Shown here: positions 1-807 of the stretch, in pieces
Position numbering within the stretch: the first letter of the stretch is position 1
Layout of the letters: each line of letters starts with the position of its first letter
NCBI GenBank assembly: GCA_001600495.1
Contig: BCKE01000010.1
Span: forward strand, 700,765-764,764
Direction of reading: 5' to 3'
Origin: Pilasporangium apinafurcum
Taxonomy: Eukaryota; Oomycota; Peronosporomycetes; Pythiales; Pythiaceae
DNA: 64,000 nucleotides
Translations under genes and position numbers: made by a program
Notes under the pieces: generated by a model
What the model was told of the DNA's origin: nothing
The model's input: the letters and a program-made list of their open reading frames with translations, nothing else
The model's database searches: none

Positions 1-581
1 ATTTGGAACGGGTGAGATTTTGTCTCGTGTATTTGGATCATCTTCTTGACATGTATTCATCAAAGAAAATGAAGAGGCTACGATGGTCGACCTACATTCG
101 TCGACAACAGACGTACGAGAAGGTAGTCAAGAACCTTGCAGGTGGTGATAAACAAACCGTTATCGCGTATGGAGATACAAGTTTCACAAGCTCAGCTAAA
201 GGCAACATTGCTGTTCCCACAACGACCCTACGGGAGAAAATTGGCTCCAGGTGTCGTGTTGCTGATGTGGATGAGTTCAGGACGAGCATGCTGTGTTGTG
301 CTTGTCATAAGAAGATGAAGGGGTTCGTCCTTGACGGAAGGATTGTCAGTGACGGTCTTTATGGTGTACGACACTGCAAAAATAGTGAATGCCATCGCAC
401 ATTGTGGGACCATGACATCAACGCCGCAATCAACATTTTGAGGCTATTCATCGACCAAGTGAAGAAAAGAGGAGACTCGAGGTGTTTACGAGGAAAAAGA
501 ATGAATTGGTACTCGAAATCAAAAACTGAGGTGATAAACGATCTCACTGCTATGATTCTGGAAACAGATGAGTGTAACTAG
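1..581 (+). CDS. Fanzor (eukaryotic TnpB-like RNA-guided nuclease), C-terminal part; 5' end outside window
   Basis: Open from the window edge to TAG at 579-581, about 192 residues, no start visible. Seen: a basic helical stretch (KRLRWSTYIRRQQTYEKVV), then a strand ending IAYGDTSF, then VDEFRTS, whose Glu matches the RuvC-II acidic residue. A Cys-pair zinc ribbon follows (CCAC ... CKNSEC), then WDHDINAAINI, matching the RuvC-III aspartate motif. This order is the signature of the TnpB/Fanzor C-terminus. Known: Fanzor proteins use an RNA made from the 3' end of their own element to guide DNA cleavage. Inference: the two catalytic acids visible here are kept and there is no frame break, so this half looks intact; RuvC-I cannot be judged. 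A domesticated or transposon-borne copy are both possible. Confidence 0.85.
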   Translation, partial: LERVRFCLVYLDHLLDMYSSKKMKRLRWSTYIRRQQTYEKVVKNLAGGDKQTVIAYGDTSFTSSAKGNIAVPTTTLREKIGSRCRVADVDEFRTSMLCCACHKKMKGFVLDGRIVSDGLYGVRHCKNSECHRTLWDHDINAAINILRLFIDQVKKRGDSRCLRGKRMNWYSKSKTEVINDLTAMILETDECN

Positions 582-586
582 TTTCC

Positions 587-624
587 CCACGTGCTCTGTA
601 CTTCGCGAAGTACAGAGCACGTGG
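587..624. repeat. 38-bp perfect palindrome 5 bp after the Fanzor stop
   Basis: Two 19-bp arms (left begins ccacgtgctc, centre cttcg/cgaag at 605/606) pair without a mismatch and contain CACGTG and TCGCGA. It could be the end of the mobile element, or a hairpin at the 3' end of the transcript from which a Fanzor guide RNA is made. No target-site duplication can be tested because the other end of the element is outside the window. Confidence 0.8.
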
Positions 625-807
625 AGTAAAGGCTAATGACACTTTAGTATGCACACAGTTGATCTATAACGAAACTTATACTAAATTTGTACCAATAAAA
701 CTTTTCAATGTGTGTCTCTGCAATGCACGAACTTGTGATGCAAGCAAAAAATTTGAAATTAGCGTCACTACTACTTGTTGAACTTGAGATACCAATTTGG
801 AACGAAA

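Follow-up and report, generated by a model that had tools for sequence, protein, structure and literature searches.

The window analysed here (64 kb, C10:700765-764764, in a genome of 36.5 Mb and 136 contigs) begins with the right-hand third of an element of about 1.9 kb that carries a truncated Fanzor1 gene (window 1-632), and the ends and flanks of this element identify it as a non-autonomous DNA transposon inserted at TTAA. The sibling copies show that Fanzor cutters travelled in TTAA-inserting transposons of an oomycete genome. It is considered probable that the window copy is an old, inactivated member of such a family, that its ancestors were RNA-guided and that it is itself past function. 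The family is described through its insertion at TTAA, its ends, its copy number, its truncation and its RNA-like conservation; the window copy by itself matters little and adds no new working nuclease.

A first-pass annotation of the window had recognised a Fanzor nuclease of an oomycete-type genome in positions 1-581 by VDEFRTS, a Cys-pair zinc ribbon and LWDHDINAAINI, and this family assignment holds. The features of the element within the window are as follows.

1..581, forward strand: 3' part of the Fanzor1-like frame, codons 290-481 and the stop TAG
168..185, forward strand: YGDTSF, former RuvC-II strand that has no Glu at the canonical position
273..275, forward strand: alternative catalytic Glu E380 (VDEFRTS), in the alignment the counterpart of the Glu in DEYKTS of SpuFz1
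294..392, forward strand: zinc ribbon CCAC...CKNSEC with four Cys, the first at 294-296, the last extending to 392
414..416, forward strand: RuvC-III catalytic Asp D427, in HD and not RD
465..468, forward strand: A-run with a one-base deletion; none of the six relatives inspected here has this gap
526..636, forward strand: predicted guide-RNA (omega RNA) scaffold, with stems and a terminal hairpin; the closing helix of the consensus pairs three of the four target-site bases
587..624, no strand: perfect palindrome with 19-bp arms, inside the right end
621..632, no strand: outer segment of the right-hand TIR, TGGGGAATAAAGG in the family, ending at 632
633..636, no strand: right target-site copy, CTAA (the left copy is TTAA, L009:7505-7508)
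637..651, forward strand: flank just past the target site, the guide segment expected from published Fanzor1 guide RNAs (PMC10711439, PMC10432273)

An open frame of 192 codons occupies 3-581 in the ORF reading of the 64-kb window. As the annotation had supposed, this is the 3' part alone of the gene, the remainder of which lies upstream on the contig: the frame starts at an ATG at C10:699900 (L009:7901), 865 bp left of the window, and runs for 481 codons to the TAG, with four single Ns at or near its 5' end. The half missing from the window has no stop and supplies the RuvC-I Asp (D208), and the motifs follow in Fanzor order, IGLDSG (D208), YGDTSF, VDEFRTS (window 267-287) and WDHD, with LWDHDINAAINI placed after the zinc ribbon. 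All three catalytic acids (D208, E380 and D427) are retained, including the two visible in the window that had been described as kept; the RD signature, however, reads HD. Six residues separate E380 from the first Cys of the zinc ribbon, E(FRTSML)CCAC, which is the ExxxxxxCxxC arrangement of Fanzor1; this pattern together with DPG has been described as a Fanzor mark (PMC10711439).

Profile comparisons agree with the motifs. The Pfam family Cas12f1-like_TNB (PF07282) matches the window part with an E-value of 1.6e-6, and the score (28.6 bits) exceeds the curated cut-off of 26.3, placing the match beyond chance; with 25.2 bits, the frame in its full length of 481 aa stays slightly below that cut-off. 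In a phmmer search of solved structures with the 481-aa frame, SpuFz1 was matched at E 2.4e-4 and the next chain, named 'Transposase', at 0.71. A profile built from the frame and four homologues matched SpuFz1 (1.8e-20), PpFz1 (2.1e-12) and GtFz1 (1.5e-11), the Fanzor1 proteins with structures named in PMC11423790; the remaining chains at E<=1 were PcrA helicases alone (0.067-0.3), and no TnpB/Cas12 chain appeared at that threshold. The OrfB_IS605 helix-turn-helix, a Fanzor2 trait, had no Pfam match in the 481-aa frame or in the full-length homologue P0002. Because the alternative RuvC-II Glu stands before the zinc ribbon, the RuvC-I Asp is present upstream and the matches are to SpuFz1, PpFz1 and GtFz1, the gene is assigned to the Fanzor1 type and is, judged on these sequence comparisons, a true Fanzor1 by descent. 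The oomycete-type host is likewise borne out by a 5'-3' exoribonuclease gene in the window, the best named matches of which are in Lagenidium giganteum (71%), Pythium oligandrum (69%), Globisporangium ultimum (78% over 77%) and Phytophthora.

The complete element measures 1,889 bp (C10:699508-701396; left end L009:7509, last base window 632). Where 18 left and 30 right ends were aligned, similarity ends at TTAA followed by CCTTTTTTCCCCAAGTG on the left and at GGGGAATAAAGG followed by TTAA or CTAA on the right. The inverted ends read CCTTTWTTCCCCA on both sides and start with CCTTT. Ends of piggyBac-type transposons begin CCY, and those of this family do the same. On the left, the target site is TTAA in 14 of the 18 ends, which were aligned without a TTAA pattern, and on the right the 29 selected ends carry TTAA (14), CTAA (12), TTAG (2) or CTAG (1), such that the right copy is CTAA or otherwise changed in 15. 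When the two flanks of the window copy were joined (350 bases) and used as a query, the search found 11 places that continue uninterrupted across the junction for 232-315 bp with a single TTAA, in addition to one short match and one filled site; the empty site in L022 was read base by base as well. These eleven paralogous empty sites prove the insertion, and the duplicated TTAA with precise empty sites is that of a TTAA-inserting TIR transposon.

The host sequence at the insertion is itself a repeat. Part of this repeat, left of the window, is a fragment with a stop (L009:6941-7475) that by eye resembles the C-terminal part of a DDE transposase and matched no Pfam family above cut-off. Farther left, on the minus strand, a decayed frame (L009:6033-6800) looks by eye like a second, different Fanzor, with DEYQRS and, in a broken frame, GIDPG; phmmer against solved structures gave no support (best E 0.9), and a related stretch (79%) occurs in L033. 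At two other loci, L011 and L025, homing into paralogous sites was considered on account of a common left flank up to the insertion point. The identities of flank (86%) and element (89%) fit an old segmental duplication, and the homing reading was dropped for this pair.

Elements with these ends are numerous. The end pattern TTAACCTTTWTTCCCCA, allowing at most one mismatch, has 251 forward and 243 reverse matches genome-wide, compared to 0 and 0 for the reversed-letter control, and at the DNA level the window copy has at least 40 long matches (40 of 276 candidates were scored), of which one is the copy itself and the others are 88-93% identical to it. Three size classes were read. Short elements of about 1.9 kb resemble that of the window. 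Long elements (L064-L066) span 2.43-2.52 kb between target sites and keep the N-terminal region in broken frames; long siblings such as L034-L037, L065 and L066 hold sequence for long-form residues 1-227, again with broken frames. Five MITEs of about 207-226 bp (L059-L063) are homologous to the left part of the long element. Besides these classes there are solo hairpins of about 60 bp with TTAA on both sides (L070:105-165, and a decayed one at L040:3412-3472), and these palindromes look like the smallest mobile form of the family.

A second gene type shares part of this architecture. The 503-aa protein of L003 has an OrfB_IS605 helix-turn-helix and a zinc ribbon in Pfam searches, and is therefore classed as Fanzor2-like. 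Of six Fanzor2-like loci, three (L004, L006 and L007, two of them internally shortened) have a homologous TTAACC left end that starts TTAACCTTTATT(T)CCCCA; four of the six right ends read GGTTAA, and the right end, CCGTTATTATTTGGG inward, is unlike that of the window family. This suggests that Fanzor1 and Fanzor2-like genes may be carried behind one type of left end. PF07282 domains are abundant in the genome: at least 150 of 852 candidates were scored, all above cut-off, and the true number exceeds 150, since the weaker window copy is missing among the matches listed. Two of these matches, C53:214292-214489 (minus strand) and C29:297585-297782, fall in putative open frames of 8,140 and 2,332 codons, which would be remarkable if real. 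Two TnpB-like genes (L001, C7:592916; L005, C135:16707) differ from Fanzors in that they seemingly have the RuvC-II Glu at its canonical place (IIFLEKFES), and could be of bacterial or viral origin.

The right end of the element has the structure expected of a Fanzor1 guide RNA, as predicted from folding and covariation. Right ends were found in 40 rows, from which L053 (a repeat), L037, L047 and L048 were dropped; seven of the remaining 36, with damaged or deleted hairpins, were set aside, and 29 were aligned over the 125 nt up to TTAA. The consensus fold consists of a stem across the relatives' stop codon (window 526-546), a small stem, TCCGgaaaCGGA in the family and TCTGgaaaCAGA in the window (557-568), and, at the terminus, a long hairpin; its outer helix, TA[G/A]CC / GG[C/T]TA, includes three of the four target-site bases in the consensus of the 29. 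Two-sided changes occur in 8 of 32 pairs and in 23 cells, where shuffling gives a mean of 5.4, and 97.7% of cells are paired, figures to be read with the choice of ends in mind, since selecting for an intact end favours pairing. In the three small stems alone, two of 12 pairs change on both sides, a number reached by 71 of 500 shuffles, over four cells (one of 500). For the right end of the window copy the folding energy is -44.9 kcal/mol (z -5.7). Its palindrome at 587-624 is the sole perfect inverted repeat in the 64-kb window with arms of at least 14 bp and a loop of at most 8, and is perfect although its letters depart on both arms from the family form, which has 108 forward and 109 reverse occurrences at three or fewer mismatches (control 0); palindromes may thus be maintained as DNA. 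In the right target site, the first base was also compared with its hairpin partner (A2 columns 71 and 133): C stands with G in 11 cases and with A in two, T with G in eight and with A in eight, a weak hint of hairpin-templated change of the right target-site copy.

The left ends form hairpins as well, so the role of the terminal hairpin may lie in DNA transposition and not in an RNA. Taken to its conclusion, this would make the Fanzor an inert cargo of ordinary TTAA transposons, presumably of piggyBac, Kolobok or Sola3 type, with a 3' end that is a transposase-binding terminal hairpin and encodes no guide RNA. Such an account draws further on the MITEs, which multiplied without the Fanzor 3' end, on the existence of solo hairpin elements and on the broken state of nearly all copies examined. 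It is nevertheless thought unlikely. Conservation extends to small stems that are not part of the terminal repeat and that show a few two-sided changes, and variants shared among copies have an omega of 0.70, below neutral and a sign of weak past constraint. The layout also fits experimentally mapped Fanzor1 guide RNAs, which include the TIR and TSD in the scaffold and extend about 15 nt past the TSD (PMC10711439).

The window copy is probably a dead relic without an intact enzyme, as judged from its reading frame and its missing parts, and the working nuclease implied by the first-pass annotation is not borne out. The first ~200 residues of the 680-aa homologue P0002 have no counterpart in it, and its similarity to the long form starts at long-form residue 174. 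The upstream Fanzor homology that the annotation had made a condition is present with RuvC-I but ends ~200 residues before the full N terminus. The complete REC/WED N-terminal region is absent here and present, in broken frames, in the long siblings; its absence bears on function, not ancestry. If D208 is equated with D383 of SpuFz1, the missing stretch is by position that of SpuFz1 residues 1 to ~175, within which fall H21, T22, K25, R96, Q129, Q130 and N133, named as guide-start and TAM contacts of that protein (PMC10432273). As for an upstream exon that would give the short element its N terminus, no frame 5' of codon 1 reliably matches the long form. N-terminal matches in six short copies (L017, L019, L025, L027, L029 and L031; 46-55%, reaching back to residue 139-151) were considered and rejected, and the upstream matches of the two inspected, L019 and L031, cross a stop and look spurious. 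In the retained part, RuvC-I reads DSG in place of DPG (P in 33, S in four and L in two of 39 aligned sequences) and RuvC-III reads HD (R in 35 and H in four of 39). The annotation's 'no frame break' is correct in that the frame is open, yet relative to its relatives the copy has lost one base in the A-run at 465-468, after RuvC-III; as a consequence the last ~38 codons stand in a shifted frame, and the frame of the relatives stops at a TGA equivalent to window 527-529 (..ENELVLEIKN-stop).

Relative to the window copy, whose own deletion is counted, all 38 other aligned copies have a frame-changing indel, and 36 have in-register stops. Pairwise dN/dS is about 0.58 in the short and long size classes alike; private changes pooled over the 38 (92 synonymous, 277 non-synonymous) give an omega of about 1.16, and the copy tree is star-like in appearance. 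The private changes look neutral, and the family is read here, from these substitution patterns, as an old burst that has since decayed.

It could be argued that the shortened gene still works and is under selection, either as a miniature Fanzor or as a regulator that binds guide RNA and does not read a TAM, and that the copy in the window is the active one. The window copy is alone in having a frame longer than 431 codons, found at none of the other 49 places in a survey of fetched places, some shortened or cut by the locus end (51 rows, 50 places, L053 repeating L025). It retains the three catalytic acids, 18 short copies including it have a common left end, so that the short element did amplify, and its nine private changes (three synonymous, six not) give an omega of 0.77. 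That omega is statistically indistinguishable from the one in the other copies (Fisher p 0.70), however, and the five MITEs show that amplification in trans proceeds without a Fanzor. With the region of TAM and guide-start contacts gone by position, and with DPG, RD and the C-terminal frame altered, a functional miniature is judged very improbable; the lone long frame probably reflects luck and fewer hits.

Neither IS607 elements nor Helitrons are, to our knowledge, known for duplicating TTAA. An IS607-like element or Helitron in place of a TIR/TTAA transposon merits hardly any belief in view of the inverted CCTTT ends, the TTAA on both sides and the single-TTAA empty sites, even though Helitron2 elements with hairpins at both ends carry Fanzor1 in Chlamydomonas and some have TSDs of 7-19 bp (PMC3627910).

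With respect to a transposase partner, none was seen between CCTTTWTTCCCCA ends in the elements read, which represent part of the genome (the look-up of distant pairs covered the first 100 of 494 end matches), and an autonomous copy may exist elsewhere in it. A 7.3-kb candidate for an autonomous element (C26:140329-147662) proved to be two separate remnants around host genes. The genome has three matches to the transposase family PF13843, one of them with an open frame of 546 codons; for piggyBac-type genes, there is one complete frame and 18 other places that partly match it (E 2e-88 to 5e-4), none of them linked to the ends of the Fanzor family. The best piggyBac gene, that of L040, was considered as the partner on account of TTAACCTTTGGCC...ACGCGTGG, 370 bp past its stop, which resembled the family's right end. 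A 71-bp search from this hairpin found five other places, and the one fetched (L070) is a solo hairpin of about 60 bp with TTAA on both sides. The L040 hairpin resembles this solo element and for that reason does not tie the piggyBac gene to the Fanzor family; no ends matching the family were shown beside the gene at this locus.

For the preferred reading, an old TTAA transposon whose ancestors were RNA-guided, the following mechanism is proposed. A DDE transposase with TTAA specificity, in the simplest case one of piggyBac type, would move the elements in trans. In the full-length ancestors, the Fanzor would bind an RNA derived from the 3' end of the transcript that encodes it, with the stems, terminal hairpin and target-site copy serving as scaffold and the flank beyond TTAA as guide. 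By analogy with work on TnpB, the ancestral Fanzor might then cut an empty TTAA site next to a matching flank, and repair from a filled copy would restore the element after excision. TTAA would be insertion site and TAM at once, which is plausible because the TAM of GtFz1 is TTAAN (PMC10432273); one sentence in PMC11423790 swaps the CATA and TTAA TAMs of GtFz1 and SpuFz1, and elsewhere in that paper TTAA again belongs to GtFz1. A more ambitious version is offered tentatively and held at somewhat less than even credence: that a single TTAA transposon lineage captured both Fanzor1 and Fanzor2-like genes, with TTAA as target, TAM and part of the scaffold, a nuclease that homes the element back after excision and a helper of piggyBac type. 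If true, the TnpB cycle would have a eukaryotic, double-stranded counterpart. The homing idea becomes testable through the hundreds of TTAA ends, the clean empty sites and the identity of the target site with a known Fanzor TAM, and one question it opens is whether, from one oomycete genome to the next, guides and TAMs agree with the TTAA sites that are filled and those that are empty.

It should be noted that Fanzor1 genes in oomycete transposons have been reported before, in the Pythium and Phytophthora families of Bao and Jurka 2013 (PMC3627910). Unlike the family described here, the Pythium elements PUl-1 and PUl-4 were assigned to Mariner with TA TSDs. The main text of that paper names Helitron, Mariner, IS4, Sola and MuDr, contains no TTAA, and mentions piggyBac once, for other proteins; in the literature searched by titles and abstract openings, no description of TTAA-type Fanzor transposons in oomycetes was found. 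Fanzor2* is known from eukaryotic cut-and-paste transposons of Chloropicon and molluscs (PMC10711439), to which the Fanzor2-like L003 and the TTAACC left ends at half of the six loci are comparable; in P. apinafurcum, unlike there, one 13-bp left-end motif is common to Fanzor1 and Fanzor2-like elements, and the right ends differ.

Among the close parallels are two Fanzor1 systems with known TAMs. SpuFz1 of Spizellomyces punctatus (PDB 8gkh), encoded by Spu-1, has the same order of D, relocated Glu and D with a zinc ribbon, and Spu-1 is likewise a Fanzor-only element with inverted ends, many gene-less relatives and a structured RNA region 3' of the gene, from its stop codon to the right end (PMC10432273). 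In that work, Saito et al. report no transposase between Spu-1 ends and call the biological role of Fanzor cleavage unknown. The two differ in that Spu-1 has putative TA TSDs (PMC3627910) and a CATA TAM where the oomycete family has TTAA, and 19 full-length genes where the window copy lacks an equivalent of residues 1 to ~175 and has a frame-shifted end. GtFz1 of Guillardia theta (PDB 9cer), matched by the Fanzor1 profile as given above, comes from loci that reportedly seem to be without inverted repeats, in contrast to the clear ends of the oomycete TTAA elements, but its TAM, TTAAN, is the very target site at which the oomycete family inserts (PMC10432273).
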